DNA of 64,000 nt from Planctomycetota bacterium (GTDB lineage: Bacteria > Planctomycetota > Phycisphaerae > WQYP01). The notes beneath the pieces were generated by a model that saw only the letters and a program-made list of their open reading frames with translations, did not search any database and had not been told where the DNA came from. Location of the stretch: the NCBI GenBank assembly GCA_021790385.1, contig JAJYDW010000013.1, forward strand, positions 1 through 64,000, given 5' to 3'. Positions 17,707-57,471 of the stretch are shown here, in pieces; positions within the stretch are counted from its first letter, which is position 1; each line of letters begins with the position of its first letter. The translations under genes and the position numbers were made by a program.

Positions 17707-18031
17707 CGATTGGGTTTTCCTTTCCAATGAACTTACGCCAGCAATGGGGTAGAAGTTCGGCCCAGCCTCATACGTTGATGATAGTGTTGTGGTGGAAGTG
17801 CGCCAACCCGATGGAGGCGAGAGGGCGGTTCTGCGGAGTGATTCCGCACCTTACCTCGTTGCGGGCAGCAAATGCTGGGCCCGCATTATCCGCCCCCATG
17901 GCAGGATAACTTAAAACCAGGGGATGCCCGTGCAGGGAAAGACCGCAGGCGATAATCGACCGCGGCAAACACCCGGACGGCAACTCAACAAAATTCATTG
18001 TGTTACCACAACCCTGAATAGGAGAAACGAA
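17707..18031. other. Divergent intergenic region, efflux operon / capsid gene
   Basis: No gene is seen in these roughly 325 bases, and no near-consensus promoter for either side stands out. An AGGAGA at 18020-18025 serves the capsid gene. Confidence 0.5.
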
Positions 18032-19399
18032 ATGAAAGTCAAATTCCTGAAAGATTATCTGGGCCATCACAAAGACACCGTGCTGGATATTGCCGACGAT
18101 CAGGCCCAACCGCTGCTCGATGCAGGTGTCTGCCAGGCGGTGGAAGCCCGGCCGGAGGAACTGGATCAGGCGGTGGCAGCCATCCAGAAATCGATGAACG
18201 AGCAACTGGAAAGCGCCGCCCAGAAAATCACCAAACGTGTGATTGAGCAGGTATCAAAAGGTATTTCCGGGGTGCGGCCCAGCATTGTCATCGGGCCGGA
18301 CCGGGCCGATCTGGACCCCACCGGCGGATTCAAAAATCTTGGTGAATTTGCGGCGGTGGTGCGAAAGCATTCGCTGGGGCACTTTACCGACGAGCGGCTA
18401 AGCCGGATGATTGCCAAGGCGGACGGCATGAACGAAACGGCCCTGTCCGACGGCGGCGCCCTGGTGCCTACGGAATATGCCAACCAACTGTACCGGGATG
18501 TTCTGGCGGAATCGGTGCTCTTTGACAAGGCCCGCAAATATCCGATCAACCTGGGCAATTCACTTTTTATACCGGTGCGTTCCATGCTGGATCTGGGGAC
18601 TACCGCAGCCAGCGGCGGTTCGCTGGGCACGTGGTTGACCGCCGGTGGCGTTACCGCTGACGGCGTACCCATCCCCGCCCAGAAGCCGGTATACAGCCGC
18701 GTGCAGATGACGTTGAACCGCTGGGGAGCACTGCTTCCGGTAACCGACGAGTTGCTGCAGGACAACAATGTGGCGCTGGCGAATTTCATCCTGGATGAAG
18801 GGGGCATTGCCCTGGCCTGGGATTTGAACAATGCGTTTATCAATGGTTCCGGCCAGGGTCAGCCGCAGGGGGTACTCTCGTCTTCGGCGCTGATTACGGT
18901 GGCTGCGGATACGAGCCAGACGCCGTTTACAATTACATACAGCAACCTGGTGAACATGAAAAGCCGGCTCTGGACCATTCGCCCCGGAGACATGTCCGGC
19001 GTGGTGTGGATAGCGCATCCGGACTGCGAAGCCCAGTTTGAACAGCTCAAGGATGCGGCAGGCCGGAATCTGTATTTTGCGGCCGGCACCATCGGGCAGA
19101 CGCCCAATGCGAAGCTGTTTGGCATTCCGGTGGTGTACAGCTACCACTGTTCGGCGGTGGGCAGCATCGGCGATGTGATTCTGGCCGATTTCAGTCAGTA
19201 TTTTGTGTCCACGAAGGTCAATGGCGGCCTGGAAACGGCCATGTCCATGCACCTGTATTTTGATTCGGCGGAGGTGGCGTATCGCATACTCTACCGTATC
19301 GATGGCAAGGTAGCCCGCCAGTTGCCGCTCACCATTCCCAGCAGTACCAACACCCGCAGCGGCTTTGTGGCGCTGGCCGCACGGCAGCCGATCAGTTGA
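18032..19399 (+). CDS. Phage major capsid protein, HK97 fold
   Basis: 455 residues. A short N-terminal charged and coiled region (SMNEQLESAAQKITKRVIEQ) could act as the scaffolding delta domain. The body is typical of the Phage_capsid family: GGALVPTEYANQLYRDVLAE, ALLPVTDELLQDNNVALANF, the loop NNAFINGSGQGQPQGVL, and FGIPVVYSYHC followed by GDVILADFSQYFV near the C-terminus. ATG 18032 follows AGGAGA. No terminase, portal or protease gene lies upstream, where the neighbour is a divergent efflux operon. The capsid gene is therefore isolated from its usual partners. Confidence 0.9.
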   Translation: MKVKFLKDYLGHHKDTVLDIADDQAQPLLDAGVCQAVEARPEELDQAVAAIQKSMNEQLESAAQKITKRVIEQVSKGISGVRPSIVIGPDRADLDPTGGFKNLGEFAAVVRKHSLGHFTDERLSRMIAKADGMNETALSDGGALVPTEYANQLYRDVLAESVLFDKARKYPINLGNSLFIPVRSMLDLGTTAASGGSLGTWLTAGGVTADGVPIPAQKPVYSRVQMTLNRWGALLPVTDELLQDNNVALANFILDEGGIALAWDLNNAFINGSGQGQPQGVLSSSALITVAADTSQTPFTITYSNLVNMKSRLWTIRPGDMSGVVWIAHPDCEAQFEQLKDAAGRNLYFAAGTIGQTPNAKLFGIPVVYSYHCSAVGSIGDVILADFSQYFVSTKVNGGLETAMSMHLYFDSAEVAYRILYRIDGKVARQLPLTIPSSTNTRSGFVALAARQPIS

Positions 19400-19518
19400 T
19401 GAGTCCGGGCAAAGCCGGGTCGGAAAACGGGTGGTCGGCTGTGGTCAACGCGCCCGTTCCGGCCTGGCCCGGCAGCCATTGGCGTGTGCAGATGTGCCAA
19501 GTTCCACAGGATTCAGTC

Positions 19519-19770
19519 ATGCAGACAATTACCGCCGAGATCGGCATGAATTTACTGGTGCAGTGGTCGCTGGTGGGCGGCTTTTTAATCGGGCTGCTGG
19601 GCAGCATGGTAACCGCGGCTGGATACGTATCCGCTTTGCGCATCACGCAGCGGGAACATTCGCGGCGGCTGGATGCCATGGAACAAAGTTCGCAACTGGC
19701 CAATGAACGAATGCTGCGGATGGAGCAGGGCATCGCCAAATTGCTGGAACGTACTCGGCACATGGGATAA
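19519..19770 (+). CDS. Small membrane protein with coiled coil
   Basis: 83 residues: an N-terminal amphipathic part, one membrane helix (SLVGGFLIGLLGSMVTAAGYV), and a charged coiled coil (REHSRRLDAMEQSSQLANER). It begins 119 bases after the capsid stop. The architecture resembles holin-adjacent or Rz-like phage envelope proteins, but no family is recognised. The frame is open upstream to 19396; ATG 19519 places the membrane helix sensibly. Confidence 0.55.
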   Translation: MQTITAEIGMNLLVQWSLVGGFLIGLLGSMVTAAGYVSALRITQREHSRRLDAMEQSSQLANERMLRMEQGIAKLLERTRHMG

Positions 19771-19840: not shown

Positions 19841-20428
19841 ATGTTGCAATATCATCAATCAAAAATGGTTCGTATCGCGCTTCTGGGTTTAGTCACCATT
19901 GGGTTGGCAGGTTGTAAAAGTCAGCCCTGGACCGGACTGGAGATGGCCCCACCGGTGGAACCGCAAATCGCAGGGCTGGTGCCGCAACTCGCCCAGGTGC
20001 AGGCTCTTAATCACGCGGCCCGGAGGCAGGTGCAGCACCTTACACCGGCCAATGTGCCGGCCCAAAAGCCCAAAGTATTGGCCACTCTGGCAGTGCAGCG
20101 ACGGGCGTTGTACCAGGCCGCAGCAACCGTGGCCATGGTACGAACTGCCGCCGGTCGTGAAGATCAGGCCGCACAACAGGCCGTTGCGGCCGCCCGGCAC
20201 GCCGCAGAGCAACTCACCGCTACACGCGAACTGCTGCAACAAGCCCAGCAGCGCTATCGCGATGCCTGGCTGGGTGGCAAGGCCCATCGGCTGCTGGACT
20301 GGATTGTGGGCTTATCCGTGGCCGCAGTGTTGCTGGATTTTCTGGCCGATGCGTTTTTGGGAGTCGGGTTTAATCCCCTGGAATGGATCGCCGGGCTTTC
20401 CGGCCTGGCGAAAAAAAAGATGGTTTAA
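19841..20428 (+). CDS. Putative lipoprotein with helical body and C-terminal membrane segment
   Basis: 195 residues. A signal peptide ends in the lipobox GLAGC. The body is a long Ala/Gln/Arg-rich helix without Gly or Pro breaks (QAVAAARHAAEQLTATRELL). A hydrophobic stretch (LDWIVGLSVAAVLLDFLADAFLG) lies near the C-terminus. A lipid anchor plus a long helix is reminiscent of phage spanins, which bridge the envelope at lysis. This is inference; no family match is recognised. CGGAG precedes the start. Confidence 0.6.
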   Translation: MLQYHQSKMVRIALLGLVTIGLAGCKSQPWTGLEMAPPVEPQIAGLVPQLAQVQALNHAARRQVQHLTPANVPAQKPKVLATLAVQRRALYQAAATVAMVRTAAGREDQAAQQAVAAARHAAEQLTATRELLQQAQQRYRDAWLGGKAHRLLDWIVGLSVAAVLLDFLADAFLGVGFNPLEWIAGLSGLAKKKMV

Positions 20429-20635: not shown

Positions 20636-20725
20636 CGCGGTGGTGCCGGCGGCTGGGGAGTGTGGCGCAGTCTGCCGCCGGTGGTTTCCGACAGATGGCA
20701 GGCATCAGGTATAAAGGTTCCGCGG

Positions 20726-22042
20726 ATGCGTATGTTAATCAAATGGCCCACTCGCCAGAGGCCGCAGAAATTTCTGGAAAATCTGGCGCGTTGGCGGGCG
20801 ATGCTTTCCGGTTGCAACCAGGTGCACTTTTTAATATCCGTGGATGAAGATGATAGCACCATGAACCAGCCGGCGATACGTAAGGCGCTGGCGGCGATGG
20901 CCAACGTAACTCTGCGCGTGGGGCCGGCGGGCCGGAGTAAAATAGCCGCCTGCAATGCGGATGTGGATGCGTGGGTACGCGAAACATCCTTAACTCCCCA
21001 CGTGCTGGTACTGGCCAGTGATGATATGGTGCCGCAGGTGCCTGGTTATGACCAGCTCATCACCACCACCATGGCGGAAGTATTTCCCAATGTGGACGGA
21101 GCGCTGCATTTTGATGATGGTTACCATGGCGGCAACCGGGTGATCACGCTTTCGGTGCTGGGCTGGAATCTGTATACCAAGTTCGGCTATTTGTATCAGC
21201 CGGAGTACCAATCCTTTTTCTGCGATAACGAATTCACCGATGTAACCCGGGCCATCGGGGCGTATCATTATGATCCGCGGGTAATTGTGCGCCATTGTCA
21301 TGTCGGACGAACCCCCGATGCGCTCTATCGCCGGAATCAGGCCTGCTGGCTGCAGGACCAAAACACGTATCACCGGCGCCACCAGGCAGGTTTTGGCCTG
21401 CGGGAGCCGATCTTAAGCATTTTGATTCCCACCCTGCCGGTACGCCACGCCAGCCTGCAACAACTGCTGGACAATCTCAATCGGCAGACCGCGGCGTTGG
21501 GGAATCCATGGGCGGTTGAAATTCGCATCAACCGTGATGGCGGCGAAAAACCTGTGGGCGTGAAACGCAATGAATTATTGGCCACAGCCCGCGGCCAATA
21601 CGTGGCATTTATTGATGATGATGATCAAGTAGCCACGGACTATATGGCAGAAATCCTTGCGGCCCTGGCCCGGCATCCGGGGGCGGATTGTGTGGTATTT
21701 GCCGGCGAATTAACCGTGGATGGCCATATTGCCGGTCCGTTTGACTTTGGCCTGGAACACCGCCGTTATTATCAGCGGGGCGGCGTGTACTATCGCACTC
21801 CCAACCATTTGTGTCCGGTAAAACGGGCCTTGGCCGTGGCCACGGGCTTTCCAACCATCAACCGGGGCGAAGACACGGATTATGCCGTGCGCCTGTATCC
21901 GCAATTACAATCGCAGGCAGCGGTCCGCCGGTCCGCTGCCGCGCACGAAAAATCAGATCATCCGGACCGGATGGTTAAAAAAACGCTTTATTTCTATCGC
22001 TTCAGCACGCGCGGCACAAAAACACAAAAGCCGATAACCTGA
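20726..22042 (+). CDS. Glycosyltransferase with two GT-A-like domains
   Basis: About 438 residues. The N-terminal half (LIKWPTRQRPQKFLENL, SVDEDDS, LVLASDDMVPQ) and the C-terminal half (PILSILIPTLPVR, VKRNELLATARGQYVAFIDD, then a DDDDQ box) each look like a nucleotide-sugar transferase domain with a metal-binding acidic motif. The C-terminal half has the family 2 pattern. It follows the capsid cassette on the same strand. The gene could glycosylate the virion or host surface, or be an unrelated host gene. ATG 20726 (preceded by AAAGG) is chosen; GTG 20660 is possible. Confidence 0.75.
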   Translation: MRMLIKWPTRQRPQKFLENLARWRAMLSGCNQVHFLISVDEDDSTMNQPAIRKALAAMANVTLRVGPAGRSKIAACNADVDAWVRETSLTPHVLVLASDDMVPQVPGYDQLITTTMAEVFPNVDGALHFDDGYHGGNRVITLSVLGWNLYTKFGYLYQPEYQSFFCDNEFTDVTRAIGAYHYDPRVIVRHCHVGRTPDALYRRNQACWLQDQNTYHRRHQAGFGLREPILSILIPTLPVRHASLQQLLDNLNRQTAALGNPWAVEIRINRDGGEKPVGVKRNELLATARGQYVAFIDDDDQVATDYMAEILAALARHPGADCVVFAGELTVDGHIAGPFDFGLEHRRYYQRGGVYYRTPNHLCPVKRALAVATGFPTINRGEDTDYAVRLYPQLQSQAAVRRSAAAHEKSDHPDRMVKKTLYFYRFSTRGTKTQKPIT

Positions 22043-23520: not shown

Positions 23521-23650
23521 GGACCCTTCAGAAATATTTGTGGTTTGCTCATCCCCATGGTCGAATGCAGGAGTATGTGGGGCGTGGCCGCGAGGTTGTG
23601 CAAGCCCTGCGTGCATTGTTGTGTGGCCGGGTGTTGAATCAGAGGTAAAT

Positions 23651-24985
23651 ATGAAAAGACATCATCATCATCGCGGTTTTTCGCTCACGGAATTGCTGGT
23701 GGCTCTGGCCGTGCTTACCGTCCTGGCAGCCATACTTATCGCCGGCCTGGCCCGGGCCCGTGAATACGCACGCATTTCGCAATGTCTTTCCAACCTGCAT
23801 CAACTTTCGCTGGCCGCCTTAAGCTACGCCCAGCATAATGAAGGGGCCTTACCCAGCGACTATAAAATGCCGGGCGGCTATTGGTATCCTGAAATTACTC
23901 ACTATGACAACAATATTGCCGCCAACGCCATTTGCCCGGATGCGGCTGCGCCATCCAATGGCATCGGCACCGCCACCACGGCCTGGGGACCGGTGAACCC
24001 GGACGGCCCATACCCCTGGTTGCAGGGAACCACTTCCAGCTACGGGCTTAATAATTATGCCAATCCAGGCGGCACTATTCCCGGCATTGCCAGCGTTGGC
24101 GAACTTACCCTGGGTGGCAACCAGACCTATCAGCAAATAGCCCAGGGTGCCCTTACCTCCGCCACCGGCATTACCGCCAGCGGGGACGTGAGCATTTACG
24201 GTAACCTGCAGGCCGGCGGCAGTATTAACACCAGCGGCAATTTTTATATCAGCGGCACGGAGACACCGAACATGCCCGCTCTCCAGCCTCCGAGTGTATC
24301 CAACATTTTCCAAACTATCCAAAACACGGATAATCCCACCCCGATTTCCGGCGATACCACGGTCATCAACTTCAACAACAATCCATACCAGATCATCAAT
24401 GGCGACTTTTCGCCCAATGGCCAGATTCAGATTATCGGCAGCGGTACGCTTCTGGTGACCGGAAGCATTGACGTCAGCAGTTGGTTCCCGGCCAACGGTA
24501 CGGGTACGGCCAACATTAACCTGGTGTGCCTGGGAAGCATCAATTTTTCAGGCCAGGTGAATATCAACGGGGGCATTTATGCCGGCGGCAACCTGAACTT
24601 AAGCGGCAAATATAACCTGGGTGGCGTGCTGGTGTCCGATGGGGCTTTGGCCGACACCGGCAGCGGTACGTACAGTCAAAAGCCCCCACCCTCGTATGAC
24701 CCGCGGTCCGGAGGGCGCGATCTGCTTGATTCCCAGCCGCTTTTCGCCGATTGCATCTGGGTGGACGGCAGCCCCACGGCCATCGATGCCGTGCCCACCA
24801 ATACCCAGCTTGGAGATCAGAGCCTCAACGCCAATGACCAGATGGGGCGATTCTGCATTAACCGCCATCTGGGGCAAATCAACGTATCGTTTACGGATGG
24901 CTCAGCCCATACCGTTCCGCTGGCCCAGTTGTGGCAGTTGAACTGGTCCAGCAGTTTCCGTGCCCAAAATGTGGTGGTGCCGTAG
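23651..24985 (+). CDS. Prepilin-headed beta-solenoid surface protein, copy 1
   Basis: 444 residues in three parts. (1) A type IV prepilin head: a His-rich leader, the G|FSLTELLVAL cleavage and N-methylation motif, and a hydrophobic helix running into LARAREYARISQCLSNLHQL. (2) A central Gly/Asn/Ser-rich stretch (about 165-350) with short strand-turn repeats such as SGDVSIYGNLQAGG and FSGQVNINGGIYAGGNLNL, predicted to form a beta-solenoid like bactofilins or pectate-lyase-type helices. (3) A tail with His, nine residues, then DG (RHLGQINVSFTDGSAHTVPL), the H-X9-DG signature of planctomycete prepilin-like proteins. GAGG at about 23642 supports the start; the frame is open from 23540. Export by a type II secretion or type IV pilus machine is expected. 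Confidence 0.85.
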   Translation: MKRHHHHRGFSLTELLVALAVLTVLAAILIAGLARAREYARISQCLSNLHQLSLAALSYAQHNEGALPSDYKMPGGYWYPEITHYDNNIAANAICPDAAAPSNGIGTATTAWGPVNPDGPYPWLQGTTSSYGLNNYANPGGTIPGIASVGELTLGGNQTYQQIAQGALTSATGITASGDVSIYGNLQAGGSINTSGNFYISGTETPNMPALQPPSVSNIFQTIQNTDNPTPISGDTTVINFNNNPYQIINGDFSPNGQIQIIGSGTLLVTGSIDVSSWFPANGTGTANINLVCLGSINFSGQVNINGGIYAGGNLNLSGKYNLGGVLVSDGALADTGSGTYSQKPPPSYDPRSGGRDLLDSQPLFADCIWVDGSPTAIDAVPTNTQLGDQSLNANDQMGRFCINRHLGQINVSFTDGSAHTVPLAQLWQLNWSSSFRAQNVVVP

Positions 24986-25155
24986 CCTGTTACCATAACC
25001 TGTGTACCCACGGCCCGATGGTGCGGCAGGCTTCCTGGGTCCGGTGGAGGTGCAGGTGGAGCCTGGCAAGCGTGTCCAACTGTGCCACGGCGATCTGCTG
25101 CTCCGGTCAGGCTGGCCGGCGATGGTTCAAGGGTGGCGCTGTCGGCTGGGACCGA

Positions 25156-25201
25156 TATTAAAAGCGAACTGGTTGTTTCTAACGCTGCCGCCATATTTAA
25201 T
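25156..25201. repeat. Upstream inverted repeat, copy 2
   Basis: TATTAAA (25156-25162) and ATTTAAT (25195-25201) repeat the element found before copy 1. Both share the 17-base block CTGCCGCCATATTTAAT and a following GGACC-TTCA-AAAT pattern. The gap 24986-25327 otherwise holds no gene. Confidence 0.65.
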
Positions 25202-25327
25202 CGGACCTTTCAAAAATCGTTATAGTACGTGTATACGTGTGGTCGAATAAACAGGTGTGAAGAGGCTCTCTGGCGGGTGGAACGCTTAGCTCGTACGAAG
25301 CGGGGATGTGGGGACAGTTTCAGCAGG

Positions 25328-26656
25328 ATGGACATGAAGTTACGGCATCGCAAATACGGTTTTTCACTCACGGAAATAATTGTCGTCATGGCAATTATGG
25401 CGGTTCTGGCCACTATTTTGCTGGCCGTCCTGGCCCGGGCCCGCGAATACGCGCGCATTGCTACGTGCCTGTCCAATTTACACCAGTTATCGCTGGCCGC
25501 CTTAAGCTACGCCCAGCATGACCGCGGGGCCTTGCCCAGTGATTATCAAATGCCGGGCGGCTATTGGTACAAGGAAATAGCCCCGTATGATAATGACATC
25601 GCCGCCAATGCCATCTGCCCCGATGCGACCACGCCATCCAACGACATCGGTACTGCCACCACGGCCTGGGGACCGGTGAACCCGGCCGGCCCATACGGCT
25701 GGTTGCAGAGAACTACTTCCAGCTACGGACTTAATAATTTCGTCAACCCCGGCAATAGCATCCCGGGAATCTCCAGCTTCGCTTCGTTGAGCCTCAGCGG
25801 CAATCAGACTTTTTATGGTACCATCGCCTCTGCCGCCGGTATTTCAGGAGGCGGCAACCTGACTGTGTACGGCAATCTGCAGGCCGGTGGGACGATTAAC
25901 ACCCATGGCCACGTGTACATCAGCGGAACCCAAACTCCCAATATGCCAAGCCAGCAGCCGCCCAGCGTGGCCACCATTTTTCACAATATTGAGAATACAA
26001 ATAATCCCACCCCGATTTCCGGAAGTACGCGGGTGATCAACTTCAATAGCAATCCGTACCAGATCATCAACGGTGACTTTTCGCCCAGAGGCCAAATCCA
26101 GATCATCGGCATCGGCACGCTGCTGGTGAGCGGGGATATCGATATTTCCGGCTGGTTTCCCGCCAATGGGCTGGGCACCGCCAATATCAATCTGGTTTGC
26201 CTGGGCGATATCAATTTTTCGGGGCAGGTGAATATCAACGGGGGAATTTATGCCGGTGGGGGGCTTTCGCTCAGCGGCCGGTATAACCTAAGCGGCGTGA
26301 TGGTGGCGGATGGCGCGTTTGATGACAGCGGACGCGGCACCTACGTACAGAGACCGCCGCCGTCGTTTGACCCGCGGGCCGGAGGGCGCAGCCTTACCGA
26401 AGCCCAACCGCTGTTTGGTGATTGTATCTGGGTGGATGGCAGCCCGGCAGCCACCGATGCCGTGCCCACCAATCTCACCTTGGGAGACCAAACCCTGAAT
26501 GCCAACGATCAGATGGGCCGGTTTTGCATTGACCGCCATTTGGGGCAGATCAACGAGTCGTTTACGGATGGCTCGGCGCATACCGTTCCGCTGGCCCAGT
26601 TGTGGCAACTCAACTGGTCGGGCAATTTCCGGGCGAAAAATGTGGTGGTGCCATAA
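25328..26656 (+). CDS. Prepilin-headed beta-solenoid surface protein, copy 2
   Basis: 442 residues, very similar along its whole length to copy 1 (ends in the same DGSAHTVPLAQLWQLNW-type tail). The head is G|FSLTEIIVVMAIMAVLATIL. The body has NLTVYGNLQAGGTINTHG, PNMPSQQPPSV and INFSGQVNINGGIYAGGGLS; the tail has RHLGQINESFTDG (H-X9-DG). ATG 25328 or 25334 gives the short basic leader expected for a prepilin; the frame is open from 25229. Duplication evidently included the upstream element at 25156-25201. Confidence 0.85.
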   Translation: MDMKLRHRKYGFSLTEIIVVMAIMAVLATILLAVLARAREYARIATCLSNLHQLSLAALSYAQHDRGALPSDYQMPGGYWYKEIAPYDNDIAANAICPDATTPSNDIGTATTAWGPVNPAGPYGWLQRTTSSYGLNNFVNPGNSIPGISSFASLSLSGNQTFYGTIASAAGISGGGNLTVYGNLQAGGTINTHGHVYISGTQTPNMPSQQPPSVATIFHNIENTNNPTPISGSTRVINFNSNPYQIINGDFSPRGQIQIIGIGTLLVSGDIDISGWFPANGLGTANINLVCLGDINFSGQVNINGGIYAGGGLSLSGRYNLSGVMVADGAFDDSGRGTYVQRPPPSFDPRAGGRSLTEAQPLFGDCIWVDGSPAATDAVPTNLTLGDQTLNANDQMGRFCIDRHLGQINESFTDGSAHTVPLAQLWQLNWSGNFRAKNVVVP

Positions 26657-27275
26657 GGCAGGTGGTCAATTCGTGGAGCCACAGCCAATTTCCGGAGGTG
26701 TCCAGTGGATATCTCCAAGTCCTTAAAAAAATGTAATGGTATTGGTAACTCTCCAATAGTAAATAGGTTACGAATTATTTTATGGGGTGTGGTCTGAACC
26801 GTTATTGGACAGGGCTGCACGATCGAGGACTGCCAGCGTAAGTATAAGGTGAGGCCGGAGATTTGAATCTTCTTGCCTCTGGCGGCTGAGGGAGCCTGGA
26901 TCTACCACGGACGGGGTTGTTGAGGGGTCTGGGTTTAATTTTGATGGGTGGAAAAACTGATGGATAAGTCCGAACTTTTTCCAGGATGGCGATTTTATAG
27001 GACCATGTAAGATTTTCCGAATATTTTTGGGGGAAATATTTTCCATCCGCCGTTTTATGACTATGGTTTTAGCATCGCTTAGGTGCGGCGGCCCATGTGG
27101 CGTGCTTCCTTGGCGAGGGCACTAAAAGTGCAGTGGCGAGCAGTAGCTTTTATGAGCCGGTCGCCAAGAGAAAACAAGTAAGTGTCTGGCCGCTGTTATG
27201 TGGCCAGGCTGCGGTTTGCCGGTTGTGTCGGCGGATCGTTATCAAAATAAAGGTCTTTTGAAAGGAGACAGCATC
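26657..27275. other. Intergenic region with possible structured RNA
   Basis: No gene is supported in these 619 bases. At 26980-27030 a block (ATTTTATAGGACC) loosely recalls the upstream elements of the two paralogues. At 27109-27168, CTTGGCGA (27109-27116) can pair with TCGCCAAG (27161-27168). They enclose a small hairpin, GCACT-aaa-AGTGC (27119-27131), about 110 bases before the PEP-CTERM gene. Confidence 0.4.
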
Positions 27276-28037
27276 ATGCGTAATGTCAAAATATCAGCGC
27301 TTGGAATTTGCGCCTTGGCTGCGGCCAGTGTCATGGGTTTGGGTGCCCATTCAGGACGGGCTAACCTCATCACAGATGTGATAACGGGTACGGGGAATCA
27401 AACCAACACCCCCTCAACATTTTCGGGTACCGTCACATTGCGGTTCGATACCACGGCAGGAACTTTGTCCATCACGATGGACAATACCACTTCCGAAACT
27501 TATGCAGCCGGTGATCTTATGCAGGGCATGAGTTTCAATATTTCCACCACCGGGGGTGGGTCGCTGTCAACGGCCACATTCTCTTCCGTTACCGGCAACC
27601 TCATCAACGTGGCCAGTGATGGTACTTACAGCAGTGCCGGGGCAGCCGCCGTTACCGGAGGAACGAACAATATAACGGGGACAAGCAATTGGGTGCTTTC
27701 GTCAACGGCAACCGGCCTTACATTGAAGACCAGCAGTGGTTTCACGCTGATTGGAGACCCCACCGGCGGAAATTACAGCGCCGCCAATAGCAGCATTAAA
27801 GGCAACGGTCCACATAATCCCTTCCTGCAAAATTCACCGACATTCGTGCTTGATCTTCCGAATATTGTGGGCGCAAGCAACGTGGATGTGACATGGGCTA
27901 CGATTTATTACACCACGGGTGGCGTCGAGACCACGACCCGCATCAATGGCGGAACGCCGTTGCCTGAGCCAGCGGCCCTTTCGCTGTTTTCCATTCCGGC
28001 CATTGGTTTGCTGCTGCGGAAGCGGCGCGTGGCCTGA
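27276..28037 (+). CDS. PEP-CTERM sorting domain protein 1
   Basis: 253 residues. There is an N-terminal signal peptide (ISALGICALAAASVMGLGAHSGRA), a low-complexity Ser/Thr/Gly-rich beta body, and a C-terminal sorting signal LPEPAALSLFSIPAIGLLLRKRR. That signal has the Pro-Glu-Pro box, hydrophobic helix and basic end recognised by exosortase systems. The protein should be exported, anchored and later released or bound to the surface. GAAAGGAG precedes the ATG. It sits between copies 2 and 3 of the prepilin/beta-solenoid family. Confidence 0.88.
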   Translation: MRNVKISALGICALAAASVMGLGAHSGRANLITDVITGTGNQTNTPSTFSGTVTLRFDTTAGTLSITMDNTTSETYAAGDLMQGMSFNISTTGGGSLSTATFSSVTGNLINVASDGTYSSAGAAAVTGGTNNITGTSNWVLSSTATGLTLKTSSGFTLIGDPTGGNYSAANSSIKGNGPHNPFLQNSPTFVLDLPNIVGASNVDVTWATIYYTTGGVETTTRINGGTPLPEPAALSLFSIPAIGLLLRKRRVA

Positions 28038-28096
28038 GCCGGTGGAATTTTCCGCGGATCCCGTCCTTTGCGGCGGCAAAGAGCTTTCAAACGCTG

Positions 28097-28128
28097 GCCG
28101 GGCTAATGCCATTGGGCATTGGCCCGGC
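28097..28128. terminator. Strong 14-bp hairpin after the PEP-CTERM gene
   Basis: GCCGGGCTAATGCC (28097-28110) pairs with GGCATTGGCCCGGC (28115-28128), with one wobble and a four-base loop. There is no T run on either side. It may be a terminator of the non-canonical kind or a 3'-end stabiliser. Confidence 0.55.
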
Positions 28129-28173
28129 TGCGGTGCTTCAAAGACGGGATGGGAGCCGGTTTCGGTAACACCC

Positions 28174-28202
28174 TTGACGTTTACCGGATGCAGTAATATA
28201 AT
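28174..28202 (+). promoter_or_regulatory. Promoter of prepilin/beta-solenoid copy 3
   Basis: TTGACG (28174-28179), 17 bases, and a perfect TATAAT (28197-28202). The gene begins 272 bases downstream, giving a long leader. I see no gene in 28038-28473. Confidence 0.75.
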
Positions 28203-28473
28203 AATACAGATAGTTCCTTATTGGATCAAAGCCTCGTTGATCTGTCCTGGCACCAGTAGGGTTCGTAAGCGAGTGGTTTCTGCCTGACCTGATGGCTGGC
28301 AGGGGTGGATGAAAAAAACGATCCGGCTCGTGTTGCGCCGGTGGCAGGCTCTGGTTGATGTCTGTTACCATGGCACAATTCGCCCGGCCTGATATTGATG
28401 TTTTGGTTCTCTACCGTGGGGCTGTGTAGGCCTCTGCGGCACAGAACCGGCCCTCAAGAAAGGAGCTACCACC

Positions 28474-29901
28474 ATGTTGGCTCCAGCTTTAACTACGTAT
28501 GTGTTCCACAATTTGTCTACAGGTTCTATGAAATCCAGGCGGTACCGCCGCACGACACGCGCCTCCTGCAAGGGGCCGTCGCTCCGTCATGGCGGGTTTA
28601 CCCTTACGGAATTGCTGGTGGCGGTAGCCATCATAGGCATACTCATCGCCATCGTACTGACCTGTCTGGCCCGGGCCCGCGAATATGCCCGCACCGCGCA
28701 GTGCCTATCCAATTTGCATCAACTTTCACTGGCGGCGCTTGCGTATGCCCAGCATAACCGGGGAATGATGCCATCCGACGGGCTTACCATGGGTGGTTAC
28801 TGGTACCCCGAAATTAAACCTTACGACAACAACATCACCGCCAACGGCCTGTGTCCAGATGCCGCCACACCGGTCGATCCGGCTGCCACCGACCAGGGTA
28901 TTGGAACCGCCAGCCAAGCGTGGGGTCTGGTAGATCCCGTTGGGGCCTATGGCTGGCTGCAAGGCACCACCTGCAGTTACGGCATGAACACCCACGCCGG
29001 TGGTGACAGCGTTATCCCCGCAGTGGCAGCCTTTGGCAAAGTAACACTGGGGGGCAATACCAACTATTACGGAGGCATTGCCTCGGCCACCACCATTGAA
29101 GCCAACGGCAGCGCTTTGATCACCGGTGCGATGGAATCCGGCGGGGCTATTACTCTGCACGGCGGCATTACGGTGCAGGGTGCACAGTTGCCCGATATGC
29201 CCGGTATGCAACCGCCTGATGTAACCGCCATATACAACCAGATCATGCAGACGGATAATCCGGCTCCGGTTATTTCGGGCAACACCATTGACTTTACCAA
29301 CAACCCGTATCTTTATATTAATGGTAATTTTGATGCCAGCGGACAGATGACTATTATCGGTTCCGGCACGCTGCTGGTGTCCGGCAATGTGACGGTGGAC
29401 GGGATATTTCCTTCGCAGGGAGCTGCCAACATCAATATCGTTACTCTTGGCAGTGTTACCATTCACGGCCAACTGGATCTCAATGGCAGCATCTATGCTC
29501 AGGGAAACTTTACCAACAGCGGCAACCAGGGCATCCACGGCGTATTGGATATCGGCGGATATTATGATGACCACGGCAAAGGCTATATTGCCATCGCGGC
29601 CCCACCGCCCTTCGATCCGCGGGCCAACGGCAATCAAATCGTGGAATCGCAGCCGCTGTTTGGTGATTGCATCTGGGTGGATGGCAGCCCGGCAGCATCC
29701 GATGCCGTGCCCAGCAATACCCAGCTTGGCGATCCCACGCTTAACGCTCAGGATCAAATGGCCAGATTCTGCATTGACCGTCATCTGGGCTGTGTTAATA
29801 TCTCCTTTACGGATGGCTCGGCTCATACCGTTCCGCTGGCCCAGTTGTGGCAACTTAACTGGTCCGGCAATTTCCGGGCGAAAAATGTGGTGGAGCCATA
29901 A
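28474..29901 (+). CDS. Prepilin-headed beta-solenoid surface protein, copy 3
   Basis: 475 residues, clearly the same three-part design as copies 1 and 2 but more diverged. The leader is longer (about 40 residues) before G|FTLTELLVAVAIIGILIAIV. The body has AMESGGAITLHGGITVQG, FDASGQMTIIGSGTLLVSGN and IHGQLDLNGSIYAQGNFTNS. The tail is RHLGCVNISFTDG (H-X9-DG) with the same LAQLWQLNWSGNFRAKNVV end. AAGGAG at 28459-28465 supports ATG 28474; an internal ATG before SRRYRR would give a shorter leader. It has its own promoter, unlike the 17-base element of the other copies. Confidence 0.85.
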   Translation: MLAPALTTYVFHNLSTGSMKSRRYRRTTRASCKGPSLRHGGFTLTELLVAVAIIGILIAIVLTCLARAREYARTAQCLSNLHQLSLAALAYAQHNRGMMPSDGLTMGGYWYPEIKPYDNNITANGLCPDAATPVDPAATDQGIGTASQAWGLVDPVGAYGWLQGTTCSYGMNTHAGGDSVIPAVAAFGKVTLGGNTNYYGGIASATTIEANGSALITGAMESGGAITLHGGITVQGAQLPDMPGMQPPDVTAIYNQIMQTDNPAPVISGNTIDFTNNPYLYINGNFDASGQMTIIGSGTLLVSGNVTVDGIFPSQGAANINIVTLGSVTIHGQLDLNGSIYAQGNFTNSGNQGIHGVLDIGGYYDDHGKGYIAIAAPPPFDPRANGNQIVESQPLFGDCIWVDGSPAASDAVPSNTQLGDPTLNAQDQMARFCIDRHLGCVNISFTDGSAHTVPLAQLWQLNWSGNFRAKNVVEP

Positions 29902-52496: not shown

Positions 52497-53204
52497 TCAA
52501 TCTGGTATTTCGCCGGCGTCCCACAACTGCAGATTGCCATTGGCCTGATAAAAGGCCAGCCCGAAGGCGTTGCCGGGAACCATGGATCCGTTGGGCCGGG
52601 GCTTGGTAAGCTCAATGTTCACGCCCAGCGTAACGGTGCCATCCGCGGTTTTCACTCTGTAAGTCCATGATGCCGGGCTGGCGGACGTGCCGTTGTAACC
52701 GCCGGTCTGCGTAACGCTGACGGCAAACACCGGCGAACCAACGGCATAAATCAGGGCCATGGCCCGCGGCGGAGTTTCCTGGGTGTAGCCCACACCCAGA
52801 GCGGTATGAAATGAATTCATTGCCAGGGTATGCACATCGCCCAAACTATTTTCCGCCAGGTTCAGCACCAGCATATTGTTGTTGCCGGTGTCAATCATCG
52901 CTTCGGGCATGGCCAGGTTTTCCGCAGCCAGGGCGCAACTGTTGCCGCTGATAAGGTGCCCCGCGTATTTACCACCACCGGTTTCGACGGCGGTAATCTT
53001 CACCACCATCATGCGCGGCCCGGACGGTGCCGCCGCCAGACCCATCACCGCTCCGCCCCCGGCCAGACGGGTCATCGCCAGAGATTCTCCACCCAGCAAG
53101 GCGGCATTGGTATTCACCTGGTGGATAATGTCATTGACGTGGTCCGCGATATCGCAGAACGGTTCTTCGCGGGCACTCCATGTTGGAATCGGTGGATGCA
53201 TCAT
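52497..53204 (-). CDS. Phage-associated protein of unknown function
   Basis: 235 residues, no signal peptide, rich in Gly/Ala/Thr with a beta-strand pattern in the C-terminal 100 residues (VSVTQTGGYNGTSASPASWT, VTLGVNIELTKPRPNGSMVP). The head is MMHPPIPTWSAREEPFCDIA. I recognise no family. It is paired with the following gene (13-base gap) on the strand opposite to the neighbouring head-tail genes, so a virion surface protein is conceivable but unproven. Confidence 0.5.
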   Translation of the reverse strand: MMHPPIPTWSAREEPFCDIADHVNDIIHQVNTNAALLGGESLAMTRLAGGGAVMGLAAAPSGPRMMVVKITAVETGGGKYAGHLISGNSCALAAENLAMPEAMIDTGNNNMLVLNLAENSLGDVHTLAMNSFHTALGVGYTQETPPRAMALIYAVGSPVFAVSVTQTGGYNGTSASPASWTYRVKTADGTVTLGVNIELTKPRPNGSMVPGNAFGLAFYQANGNLQLWDAGEIPD

Positions 53205-53217
53205 TTTGTGCGGCCCC

Positions 53218-54084
53218 TTAAGTAATATCCGGAAAGGCGGTGTTAAAATCGGTCTGGCCGTAAATCACGAACCGCCCCCAACCATTGCCGGCCGTGGCCG
53301 AACCGTCCGTAACCATGCTGCCGGCAATGCCCGCCGGAACCGAACCGTCCACATTTTTGAAAACGGCGTATTCATCCCAGGTTTGCGGGTTGTACGCAAA
53401 GCTATACGTATTGCGATACCAGATGCCGTCCCGGGTGCTGCCGTTGATCGGCAGGCACAGCCATGTTCGCGGCGGATAGCCGCGCCACACAACGGAATTC
53501 ACCAGCCCGGCATATTGCACAGTCAGCGTTTCGGGATCTGCGGTTTGCAGAAAATGAAACGAAAGCGTGGCATTCAGCATCACCCGCTTCAATTCCGCAA
53601 CCATGGTCTGCGGCTGACCGCCCTGCGGCGTATAGTTCACCGCGGCCAGATTGTTGTTGGCATCGTACGGACGCAGCAACTGCACCAGCCCGGCGTTGTA
53701 GCTTTTCAGATAAGCCGAAGGGTATTGGTCCCATTCGTATCGGCAATAGATATCAAAACAATCCGGCCCCAGGCACACCGCCCGCACGGCCCGCACGATG
53801 GCTCCAGGCTCGTTGGGGTGGGGCGTATTCACCGCAGGAATCACAAAACCGGTGGTGGAATCGGTGGCCGTGGCCGCCATGATCGGCCTCTGCGTAGGCG
53901 TATATTCTTCCAGGCCGGTAACCTGAAACTTGCGCACAATGCGGTAGCCGGTGGTGGTCCATTCCAGCGGATTGGGCAAAAGTAAATCTTCTTTGATGCT
54001 GATGGGCATGATTGGCGTGTAGGGCGCACATGGCGGGGGATAATATGAAAGCAGCGCCCGGGCCGGCCGGAGCTGCAGCTTCAC
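53218..54084 (-). CDS. Phage-associated protein of unknown function
   Basis: 288 residues, beta-rich, with aromatic and Pro-rich phrases (RGYPPRTWLCLPINGSTRDG, WYRNTYSFAYNPQTWDEYAV). No family is recognised. GTG 54084 gives the full frame. ATG 54009 (MPISIKEDLLLP) may be the real start. It is divergent from the head-tail connector gene, from which it is separated by only 40 bases. Confidence 0.5.
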   Translation of the reverse strand: MKLQLRPARALLSYYPPPCAPYTPIMPISIKEDLLLPNPLEWTTTGYRIVRKFQVTGLEEYTPTQRPIMAATATDSTTGFVIPAVNTPHPNEPGAIVRAVRAVCLGPDCFDIYCRYEWDQYPSAYLKSYNAGLVQLLRPYDANNNLAAVNYTPQGGQPQTMVAELKRVMLNATLSFHFLQTADPETLTVQYAGLVNSVVWRGYPPRTWLCLPINGSTRDGIWYRNTYSFAYNPQTWDEYAVFKNVDGSVPAGIAGSMVTDGSATAGNGWGRFVIYGQTDFNTAFPDIT

Positions 54085-54124
54085 ACCTGGTTATCCCCCA
54101 TCATGTGGGCACTACACCCGTTTT

Positions 54125-54982
54125 ATGGTGAATTTGGTAACCGCGGATTATGTCAGCTCAGTGGTGGCCGGTGCCGGCAACATCAGCAGTGCTACGCTCA
54201 ACAATATAATAACCGCGGCCAGTGTGATGGCCCAAACTTTTTGCCGGCGGCAGTTGGTGCCCAACCGCTGGGTGGAAAAATACGATGCCCCTTCGACCGG
54301 CTATTTAATGCTGCGGCAAACACCCGTGCTGGCCCTGAATCTGGTAACCCTGTATCCACAATCTGCCAGTCCCCTCACTTATAACGCCAATCAGTTTGAC
54401 CTTCAGGCCGGTACCGGGCGAATTTCGCTCTTGCCCGATTCAACCACCGCTTTTCCCGATTTCTATTTTTTGGGGACGCAGGTCGATGGCAGCTTTCCCG
54501 GCCTTGGCCGTGGCATTATTCAGGTGGATTACACCGCCGGCCTGGGCTTTTTAACCACAGCCACCGCGCCCATCGCCCCGGGAATTCAGACCGTGCCGGT
54601 ATCGGCCACCAGCGGCCTGGCCGGTGAGGGCAACTTACTTGGGTTGTGGCAGATTTCCGTGGGCACCGCCCTGACGGTAGACCCCGGGCTACTTACCCAG
54701 GAAACCATTACCGTTACCGGCGTTTCCATCACCACAATGACCGCTGCTTTTTCGCAGCCGCACGCCAATCAGGCCCAAGTTGTTGGAACCTTAATTCCCG
54801 CAGATCTGCAACTGGCGGTGGCGCTGATCGTGGGGAATCTGATCAATCAGCCGGATTTGACCAAAAGCCGCGAATCGCTCGGGCGAACCATGGGCTATGA
54901 ATATTTTGTCCGCCCCGGCGATCTGGTGCTAACGCCCGAAATAAAAGCCATCCTTGGTCGCTACCGTGATGTGCTGGTGTAA
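54125..54982 (+). CDS. Phage head-tail connector (gp6-like)
   Basis: 285 residues. The start YVSSVVAGAGNISSATLNNI, VMAQTFCRRQLVPNRWVEKY and the end LQLAVALIVGNLINQPDLTK with ESLGRTMGYEYFV fit the Phage_connect_1 / gp6-like family that docks under the portal. A central insertion of about 120 residues with strand-rich, Thr/Gly-rich sequence makes it longer than the usual 100-200 residues. It opens a plus-strand run of virion genes. Confidence 0.7.
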   Translation: MVNLVTADYVSSVVAGAGNISSATLNNIITAASVMAQTFCRRQLVPNRWVEKYDAPSTGYLMLRQTPVLALNLVTLYPQSASPLTYNANQFDLQAGTGRISLLPDSTTAFPDFYFLGTQVDGSFPGLGRGIIQVDYTAGLGFLTTATAPIAPGIQTVPVSATSGLAGEGNLLGLWQISVGTALTVDPGLLTQETITVTGVSITTMTAAFSQPHANQAQVVGTLIPADLQLAVALIVGNLINQPDLTKSRESLGRTMGYEYFVRPGDLVLTPEIKAILGRYRDVLV

Positions 54983-55071
54983 ACGTTGCCGCAGCCGGAA
55001 CTGGAATGGCATAAAACCGCCAACCCGGCCGTGAGAGTCCCAAAGTATGCATCTGATAAAGGCCCCGTCGC

Positions 55072-55404
55072 ATGAGTTTGTTTTTATTGTGCCCTGGTCA
55101 AATATCCGTAGAGCGCGCCGCGGTCAGCACAGATGCCACCGGCGGTATCGTCCGCCAATGGCAGACGGTGGCCGCTAACATCCCCGCCACCATTCTTACT
55201 CTGCGGGCGAGTGCCAATGCCGGTATGAATCGCCGGGGCATTGTAACCACGCATCTGATTATTTCGCCGGCAAATCCGACGGCACGTATCGGCGACCGGG
55301 TCAGTGATGGTACGTTCTGGTACCTGGTGCGGTTCACAGCCGACCTGGGCAATCGAGGCCGGGCGTGGGCAATTTTCGCCCAGCTTATAGACCCGCAGTC
55401 TTAA
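55072..55404 (+). CDS. Phage head-tail joining (head closure) protein
   Basis: 110 residues of a small beta-barrel: VERAAVSTDATGGIVRQWQT, IPATILTLRASANAGMNRRG and TARIGDRVSDGTFWYLV. This is the pattern of the SPP1 gp16 / HK97 gp7-type stopper family. Its place between connector and tail-completion genes follows the standard siphophage order. Confidence 0.75.
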   Translation: MSLFLLCPGQISVERAAVSTDATGGIVRQWQTVAANIPATILTLRASANAGMNRRGIVTTHLIISPANPTARIGDRVSDGTFWYLVRFTADLGNRGRAWAIFAQLIDPQS

Positions 55405-55433
55405 TACGTGCTGCGGCAGCAGCGGGAGCCATC

Positions 55434-55859
55434 ATGCAAAGTTTAATTCCGGGTCTTATCGCCGCAATTCTGGCCGATAGCCAGGTTGCCGGCTTGCTGG
55501 CCCAGAACCAGATATATATCGGGGCAGCTCCGGAAACCGCACCCATGCCCTTTTTAACCCTGGCCACAACCGCAGGCCGGCCCACACGGCATGATTTTGC
55601 CGGCAATCGCCTGACCGAAACCATGGTGGTGCTGACTGCCGTGGGCGAAAGCCTGCCGGTGCTGCTGGAAATTGCCGACCAGCTTGCCGCTCTGCTGGAT
55701 GCTGCGAGTTTCCCTCTGGCTGCAGGGGTGCTGCTGGGGGTATGGCAGCAGCAGGCTCCAGAACCCACACTGGCCGGCTTTGATGCCGCCAATGATGAAG
55801 TCTATCGGGTGGCAAGTCGTTTCCGCTGTCAGGTGTATGAAATGGTCCGCCAGCCGTAA
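55434..55859 (+). CDS. Phage tail completion protein (DUF3168-like)
   Basis: 141 residues: IPGLIAAILADSQVAGLLAQ, IYIGAAPETAPMPFLTLATT and a C-terminal strand YRVASRFRCQVYEMVRQP. These agree with the gp17/DUF3168 tail-terminator group that ends the tail tube at the neck. GGGAG precedes ATG 55434. Confidence 0.7.
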   Translation: MQSLIPGLIAAILADSQVAGLLAQNQIYIGAAPETAPMPFLTLATTAGRPTRHDFAGNRLTETMVVLTAVGESLPVLLEIADQLAALLDAASFPLAAGVLLGVWQQQAPEPTLAGFDAANDEVYRVASRFRCQVYEMVRQP

Positions 55860-55915
55860 CCATGATTTTCAGAAATGTTCCTTGTACGTAGTGTAGTCCT
55901 TATTGGAGAAACCCC

Positions 55916-56302
55916 ATGTCCACCACCACACCGCTTTCCGGCCTGACGGCCACGGTTACTTTGCCGCCGGGAATCACCGCTCAGGTTTATGACTGCCAGT
56001 TGGAGGAGGAATTTCGCGAGGGTGATTCCGAATCGTTTGCGGATGCGGGTTACGGATCGGGCGTACTGACCGGCCAGCGCCTCAAGGGCACCATTGTCGG
56101 ATGGCTAAGCCAGAATGACCCGGGCCTGGGCACCATGCATTCGCAGGTGCCGATTGTTTTTACTGCCGCGGATGGCTGTGTGATTTCCGGCAATTTTAAC
56201 GTAACCCAATTTCGGTTGCGGTTGCGGGTGGGGCAGGTAAGCGTGTTTACCGCGGAAGTAGCCTCCGTGGGGCCGTACACCAAGGTCTGGATTCTTTCCT
56301 GA
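55916..56302 (+). CDS. Probable phage tail tube protein
   Basis: 128 residues, all beta in appearance: SGLTATVTLPPGITAQVYDC at the start, then GVLTGQRLKGTIVGWLSQND and FNVTQFRLRLRVGQVSVFTA. Size and order fit a small major tail tube subunit. Assignment rests on position more than on motif. Note that the tail chaperone with its frameshift follows directly, as in lambda-like tails. Confidence 0.6.
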   Translation: MSTTTPLSGLTATVTLPPGITAQVYDCQLEEEFREGDSESFADAGYGSGVLTGQRLKGTIVGWLSQNDPGLGTMHSQVPIVFTAADGCVISGNFNVTQFRLRLRVGQVSVFTAEVASVGPYTKVWILS

Positions 56303-56331
56303 TATGACGGAAAATTGTGGTAGAAAATGCC

Positions 56332-56817
56332 ATGAACCAAAATATGAACTTTGTAGAAGCAACTGATGCCCCGGTGATGTGGCTGTGGGGGGATACGTGC
56401 GTGATCCTGCCGGTGTGGACCATTGATGATTTGAAAGTGGTGCTGGCCCGGCTGCAGGCGGAAAAAATCTCCCATCTGCGCCAGGCCTGTGCGGAAGTGG
56501 AACTTTCTAAGGTAGAACGGACGTATGTGCTGGCGCGGGCACACTGGCAACGCCTTGGGCCTGCGGATGCGGTGGCCTATTTTCGCACCGTGGAAGGGGT
56601 GCAAGAAGCCCTCCGCCACGCTTTAACCAAAGCGGGTATCGGCCCGCAGCAGATACAGGCCATGCTGGATGCTACACCGTTTTCGGAGTTGCTGGAACTA
56701 GCGCGGGATGTGCTGCGGCTGGAATCGCCCACTGTGCCGCCCGCACCGCCCGCCGCCGGCCATGAACACCAGGGGGATACCCCCAACCCTTTTGCTGTTC
56801 CATCGCCGGCGATTTAG
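56332..56817 (+). CDS. Phage tail assembly chaperone, 0-frame product (gpG-like)
   Basis: 161 residues, helical: VWTIDDLKVVLARLQAEKIS, YVLARAHWQRLGPADAVAYF, VQEALRHALTKAGIGPQQIQ. The Pro-rich end is PPAPPAAGHEHQGDTPNPF. Position after the tail tube, and the frameshift site at 56787-56793, identify it as the G-like chaperone. ATG 56332 is chosen; GTG 56317 and ATG 56344 are alternatives. The reading frame ends at TAG 56815-56817. Confidence 0.7.
   Translation: MNQNMNFVEATDAPVMWLWGDTCVILPVWTIDDLKVVLARLQAEKISHLRQACAEVELSKVERTYVLARAHWQRLGPADAVAYFRTVEGVQEALRHALTKAGIGPQQIQAMLDATPFSELLELARDVLRLESPTVPPAPPAAGHEHQGDTPNPFAVPSPAI
56787..56793 (+). promoter_or_regulatory. -1 ribosomal frameshift slippery site CCCTTTT
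   Basis: In frame the codons are AAC CCT TTT GCT, so C-CCT-TTT is a perfect X-XXY-YYZ heptamer. A -1 shift puts the ribosome on CCC TTT and continues through an open frame of 90 more codons to 57065. It lies 24 bases before the 0-frame stop, where lambda-like tail chaperone genes shift. Confidence 0.7.
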
Positions 56818-57065
56818 AACATTCCCCGGATTTTCTCTGGCTGGAAGATCTGCGGATGTGGTACCCCGGCCTTGCGCCGGGCGGTTGTTCCTGGACAAAA
56901 TGCCGGGCCTTATGGTTGCGGGCCAATGGCGGAGGCTGTATGCCCGCCGGCCCATGGAACCGCAGTGCGGCCGGGCCGGTTGAATCTTGGGAAATGACCA
57001 AAATAAAGGAATTGGAGGCCTGGCTTGACGCACAGCATTCGTCCAACCACGTACGTACCAACTGA
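56793..57065 (+). CDS. -1 frame extension of the tail chaperone (gpGT-like)
   Basis: Ninety codons in the -1 frame, entered by frameshifting at 56787-56793. The sequence has a credible protein composition: GDLEHSPDFLWLEDLRMWYP, CRALWLRANGG, then EMTKIKELEAWLDAQHSSNH. There is no start codon with a good ribosome-binding site of its own. With the 0-frame part the fusion would be 244 residues. In lambda the T part binds the tail tube and the tape measure chaperone complex. Confidence 0.65.
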   Translation, partial: CCSIAGDLEHSPDFLWLEDLRMWYPGLAPGGCSWTKCRALWLRANGGGCMPAGPWNRSAAGPVESWEMTKIKELEAWLDAQHSSNHVRTN

Positions 57066-57471
57066 CCACCCGGCCGCGGACCAACATGCCTCCGACGGCT
57101 TTCCGGATTTTGGCAGTCTGGATGGTTTGGAAGCGGCCCTTGGCAGTGCGGAATTGGCCGCAGCCGATCCCGCCCAGGACAGGGGACGGCAGCGCGCCAT
57201 CAACCAGGGCTTTTTGCCGGCATCATCAGCCCGCGGCTTGCACTTCATGGCTTCCCGGCCAGCGCACCAGTCTGCCCGTGGGCCGGGGGCCGTGGCGGCG
57301 AATGCGGCTGCACAGTCGGCAAGCCGCGGAACCGGGGACAGGCTGGCGGAACTGGCCCAAATGCAAGAGCGCCATAGCCGGGCCTTGGAAAAAATTACCG
57401 AGTTGGTGCAGCGGCGGCGTGAGAAAACCATGGATGCGGCGGGGAATCAGCCGTTTGAGTTTGGGCCGTAG
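57025..57471 (+). CDS. Phage-region protein with C-terminal coiled coil
   Basis: 148 residues, likely from a TTG at 57025 with GGAG at 57013. It overlaps the chaperone extension by 41 bases. The N-terminal 90 residues are Ala/Ser/Gly-rich and probably disordered. The end is a charged helix (LAELAQMQERHSRALEKITE). A tape measure gene would be expected here, but this frame is far too short. It could be a tape measure remnant or a small accessory protein. Confidence 0.5.
   Translation: MTHSIRPTTYVPTDHPAADQHASDGFPDFGSLDGLEAALGSAELAAADPAQDRGRQRAINQGFLPASSARGLHFMASRPAHQSARGPGAVAANAAAQSASRGTGDRLAELAQMQERHSRALEKITELVQRRREKTMDAAGNQPFEFGP

Follow-up and report, generated by a model that had tools for sequence, protein, structure and literature searches.

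The window analysed here, a 64,000-nucleotide stretch of a contig from a bacterium of the Planctomycetota, contains a putative phage tail gene whose end overlaps a second open reading frame, shifted by one base. The question raised by this locus is whether ribosomes are programmed to slip into the −1 frame, as an earlier note on this DNA had proposed, or whether the two frames have some other relationship. We put the probability at roughly 0.88 that positions 56344-57065 encode a tail assembly chaperone with the G/GT logic of phage lambda, made by −1 programmed frameshifting. The elements of the putative frameshift are listed below; counts refer to the species of the window's genus.

56344-56817, plus strand: 0-frame of the putative tail assembly chaperone, 157 aa, G-like; kept from ATG 56344 in 5/5 species.
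56770-56777, plus strand: candidate Shine-Dalgarno (SD)-like stimulator, CAGGGGGA, ending 9 nt ahead of the heptamer; in 5/5 species nothing else within 40 nt pairs as well with the anti-SD.
56787-56793, plus strand: slippery heptamer C-CCT-TTT, in phase and perfect in 5/5 species.
56793-57065, plus strand: −1 frame extension, 90 codons plus stop, T-like; open in 5/5 species.

Re-reading the sequence confirmed the 0-frame end at 56817, the in-phase CCCTTTT and the 90-codon −1 frame, all reported in the earlier note. The phase is exactly X-XXY-YYZ, with X at codon position 3 of the 0-frame and CCT-TTT as the 0-frame codons. The 0-frame stop (TAG, 56815-56817) lies 28 nt past the first base of the heptamer. 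After the slip, the −1 frame would start with TGC at 56793 and run to a stop at 57063-57065. Only the start of the gene had to be revised: the ATG at 56332, where the earlier note began the gene, is in frame but not conserved, and conservation begins at ATG 56344. Upstream, the last stop of the −1 frame in the window is at 56763-56765, so that the frame opens 21 nt before the heptamer. Between this stop and ATG 56856 the window contains no ATG, GTG or TTG in the −1 frame, and ATG 56856 itself sits inside a conserved block of the extension. Separate initiation of the extension, which the earlier note had named as evidence that would count against a frameshift, is therefore unlikely.

How often would such an arrangement arise by chance? 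Of the 12,677 codon positions in 30 other open reading frames of the window, 46 carry an in-phase XXXYYYZ. For a single sequence, p is approximately 0.06 for a heptamer within the 16-codon overlap, or 0.035 if Y is restricted to A or T. A −1 open reading frame of at least 90 codons from the equivalent point was found in four of the 30 control frames. As these chance rates are not small, a single genome is only suggestive, and it is conservation across congeneric species, not the window's genome alone, that decides the question of the putative frameshift.

In a search of 61 related genomes, the chaperone turned up in each of the five species that make up the window's genus and in no other genome. 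The 0-frame stop is 28 nt past the first base of the heptamer in every species, and the −1 frame is 89-92 codons long, counted from the heptamer. Loss of the heptamer from homologues, or stops in their −1 frame, had been named beforehand as evidence against the proposal; all five homologues keep the heptamer and have no −1 stops, which supports a programmed −1 frameshift in a tail chaperone gene. The fused proteins of the congeneric species are 68-86% identical to that of the window. They align over their full length, with gaps of whole codons only, and the extension contains the conserved blocks DF..LEDLRMWYPGL and ESWEM.KI.ELEAWL. The other two frames of the extension hold stops in every species. 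The dN/dS ratios are 0.21-0.40 for the 0-frame and 0.18-0.60, hence below 1, for the extension.

The codons of the heptamer are also informative, with comparative evidence drawn from five species of one genus. Of the gene's nine invariant prolines, only the one in the heptamer is CCT in every species; this codon encodes just three of the other 64 prolines and is thus a rare proline codon in this gene. The preceding codon varies between Asn, His and Asp, and its third base is always C. Phenylalanine is encoded by TTT throughout the gene; since TTC never occurs, we discounted the TTT codon of the heptamer as evidence.

The SD-like element upstream of the heptamer was absent from the earlier note and was added by the present analysis. 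It takes the form AGGGGGA, AAGGGA or AAGGAGA, and ends 9 nt upstream of the heptamer in all five species. Among 441 upstream offsets, only −15 to −17 reach an anti-SD pairing energy of −4.9 kcal/mol in all five species, in a scan whose far-upstream offsets are partly out of register due to small indels. The canonical 3' end of 16S rRNA is present in the window's genome and in two relatives. Stimulators of this kind are well documented in dnaX, and an estimated 56% of IS elements have them (PMC5009743). We found no downstream stem-loop or pseudoknot: the folding energies of the 40, 60 and 90 nt past the heptamer fall within those of shuffled sequences in all five species.

Taken at face value, most ribosomes would reach the stop at 56817 and release the 157-aa protein. 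A minority, aided by the SD-like element 9 nt upstream, would slip back by one base on C-CCT-TTT, as the tRNAs for Pro and Phe shift to pair with CCC and TTT, and would produce a fusion of 240 aa. By analogy with lambda gpG and gpGT, we infer that the extension acts like lambda T: it would bring in tail-tube subunits, and assembly would be sensitive to the proportion of the 157-aa to the 240-aa product.

The surrounding genes form a tail module, as follows.

52497-53204, minus strand: divergent gene, probable counterpart, by position and similarity by eye, of the second gene past the tape-measure candidate of prophage G020:C66.
53218-54084, minus strand: divergent gene, 33% identical to the first gene past the tape-measure candidate of prophage G020:C66.
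54125-54982, plus strand: head-tail adaptor (phrog_442, E 2e-14), present in 23/28 family genomes.
55072-55404, plus strand: head completion protein (PF05521, E 1.3e-4, just under the Pfam cut-off).
55365-55859, plus strand: tail completion or terminator protein (PF11367, E 1.2e-6, above the Pfam cut-off).
55916-56302, plus strand: tail-tube-like protein, by position and by an aligned homologue in a full prophage, whose protein weakly matches phrog_185 (tail tube, E 0.049).
57025-57471, plus strand: next open reading frame, 148 aa, TTG start, GGAGG at 57014-57018, C-terminus QPFEFGP.

The gene order given in the earlier note, from adaptor to chaperone, is supported: the first and third genes have PHROG and Pfam matches, and the remaining ones have weaker matches. 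A structure model of the tube-like protein was too poor to use and was discarded. The 148-aa open reading frame is present in all five species, one copy being cut by a contig end. It comes after the chaperone; in related prophages an open reading frame of 900-1000 aa follows the chaperone-like gene. No tape-measure gene was recognised after the chaperone or elsewhere in the genus, in a search of low power, the candidates of two prophages not matching each other; the chaperone thus has no recognised client.

We regard the frameshifted gene as a putative tail assembly chaperone because of its position after the tail completion (PF11367) and tube-like genes, the frameshift, and a weak resemblance of its predicted fold to viral proteins. 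The 0-frame protein was modelled as a β-hairpin plus helices (pLDDT 79). Its best viral matches, at E 0.006, are unnamed phage proteins; annotated chaperones are among the weaker matches, with E above 0.5. The fold matched nothing significant in the PDB, and the chaperone gave no significant match to Pfam or PHROG family models. We detected no sequence similarity to lambda G or T. The fused protein has no relatives in viral contigs and 50,697 phage records, and the adaptor none among viral contigs.

The C-terminus of the 0-frame protein, NPFAVP, bears on the strongest objection to our reading. It resembles the motif NPFDFxP, which is common to the product of 57025-57471 and to the open reading frames that follow the tube-like gene in L079, L081, L082, L085 and L088, the proteins being otherwise diverged. 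Because an NPF-like motif ends neighbouring proteins, the Pro-Phe encoded at the heptamer may itself be under selection as protein. Of the arguments against the heptamer's conservation as evidence this is the strongest, and what the codons and the SD-like element show meets it in part only. Extended to the whole locus, it gives an alternative in which CCCTTTT is kept as C-terminal Pro-Phe code and the extension is a separate protein, made from ATG 56856 or by reinitiation past the 0-frame stop; the ATG is indeed conserved, as the methionine of LRMWYPGL. We think this improbable. The block DF..LEDLR, which lies ahead of ATG 56856, is conserved as protein in all five species, and there is no start codon near the 0-frame stop. 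The proline codon is the rare one, the base in front of it stays C when the residue varies, and the SD-like element is at slippage distance from the heptamer, not ahead of ATG 56856. Frameshifting is favoured by the in-phase heptamer in five of five species, the whole-codon indels, a CCT fixed against the usage of the gene, the constant distance of the SD-like element, and the gene order.

A second alternative arises from the distribution of phage genes in the genome. The particle genes are found at separate places: the capsid gene, the tail module (52497-57471), portal and protease (L045:5656-8053) and terminase (L046:2124-3638). The capsid gene is 35 kb from the tail module:

17924-19399, plus strand: HK97-type major capsid protein (PF05065, E 1.4e-36), present in 21/28 family genomes.

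The portal and protease genes are on the window's contig, just outside the window itself; the gene for the terminase is on another contig amid host genes. Relatives, which are named as Planctomycetota and Phycisphaerae metagenome assemblies, repeat the neighbourhoods of capsid, tail module, portal and terminase. While the adaptor is found in most of the family, it occurs in none of approximately 370 other sampled genomes of the class. Capsid (21/28) and terminase (19/28) are mostly single-copy, several of the genomes being incomplete. Capsid identities are 64-91% for the main family matches, versus 53-55% for two prophages. The capsid and adaptor trees recover every genus that has more than one member as a monophyletic group, with the prophages outside. 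By these sequence criteria, the locus is not an ordinary prophage; it is part of a dispersed, family-wide and apparently vertically inherited set of genes.

Some further genes lie beside the capsid gene. Two small open reading frames follow it (19471-19770 and 19844-20428): one probably contains a membrane segment, the other resembles a lipoprotein. They have no family match, and a role in lysis is suggested by position only. A glycosyltransferase gene (20660-22042) is kept beside the capsid gene in relatives and is located between the capsid and adaptor genes in the prophages. Three similar large open reading frames with a pilin-like N-terminus, starting at 23540, 25229 and 28474 (region 23540-29901), also follow the capsid locus in relatives.

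Could the locus be the remnant of a decaying prophage, in which a formerly uninterrupted gene has broken and the −1 frame, its severed end, yields no product? The structural genes are scattered, a tape measure was not found, and some capsid matches in other genera carry a stop inside the matched stretch. Set against this, both frames are intact in five species with dN/dS of 0.2-0.6, and capsid, terminase and adaptor are retained in 19-23 of 28 genomes, with trees that group by genus and place the prophages apart. An identical break at a perfect slippery site in five species would be a coincidence. We therefore consider decay very unlikely, slightly more so than a separately made extension. Transcriptional slippage, which requires a long homopolymer, is ruled out by the lack of one at the site.

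The putative frameshift can also be compared with two more complete prophages that are relatives of the dispersed set, G020:C66 (L020, L027) and G004:C147 (L030, L078). Both have a chaperone-like gene at the equivalent place, with a −1 extension of similar type (shared pattern G..P...S[WY]) that looks homologous, which speaks for frameshifting. Neither prophage gene has an XXXYYYZ site, which speaks against it. At the aligned place both read GAC-CCT-AC; a single tRNA might slip there on CCC-T, though this lead comes from two sequences. Several other genera have, immediately or a little way downstream of the tube-like gene, a protein of 120-160 aa ending in NPFDFxP; further genera have unrelated open reading frames there. 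We found no chaperone in other genera, even with a profile that included the prophage version, a search that a too-diverged copy could escape.

Among known systems, the closest parallel is with lambda G/GT and the chaperones of other long-tailed phages, which share a gene placed after the tube gene, a heptamer near the 0-frame end and a short −1 extension without a start (PMC5009743). The lambda heptamer is G-GGA-AAG instead of C-CCT-TTT (PMC5009743), and the planctomycete gene differs further in its conserved SD-like element, in having no recognisable tape measure after it, and in belonging to a vertically inherited element. Escherichia coli dnaX likewise combines an XXXYYYZ site with an upstream Shine-Dalgarno-like stimulator, but its heptamer is A-AAA-AAG; here, no downstream stem-loop is supported and the product would be a long fusion instead of a truncation (PMC5009743, PMC6787027). 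The same heptamer as in the window is used, in its C-CCU-UUU form, by the Japanese encephalitis group flaviviruses (Y-CCU-UUU), with a pseudoknot as downstream stimulator, on eukaryotic ribosomes and in an unrelated gene (PMC2657137).

Judged from its distribution and the trees, the dispersed set is probably most like a gene transfer agent. Titles and abstracts of the searched open-access papers describe no gene transfer agent in Planctomycetota, and we know of no earlier one. Gene transfer agents are defined as packaging mostly random host DNA, not their own whole genome, and delivering it to cells (PMC9662315). Three of the features given for them are found here in genes from metagenome assemblies: tailed-phage ancestry (capsid, portal, protease, terminase, adaptor and tail completion proteins are tailed-phage-derived), endogenized genes at multiple loci, and, as judged by the grouping by genus in the trees, vertical inheritance (PMC9662315). 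RcGTA of Rhodobacter capsulatus similarly has head and tail genes of tailed-phage type that sit at several loci and are passed down with the host lineage; the planctomycete set is in another phylum and has another phage ancestry (PMC9662315). A tentative extension of this idea, which we hold at somewhat less than even odds, is that the family carries an undescribed dispersed gene transfer agent that has co-diversified with its hosts, and that one genus has kept the frameshifted chaperone while others have lost it and have the short NPFDFxP protein straight after their tube gene, so that the genera would illustrate, step by step, how a domesticated tail becomes simpler.

Taken by itself, the putative frameshift adds one case to a familiar phage mechanism, distinguished by an unusual heptamer and by the conservation of its Shine-Dalgarno-like stimulator. 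The setting is of greater interest. A selected frameshift signal in vertically inherited phage genes is evidence that the tail genes still cooperate, a point that sequence data can hardly establish for a putative gene transfer agent. If the set is a true gene transfer agent, its genera could be compared to ask which parts a domesticated tail can spare.
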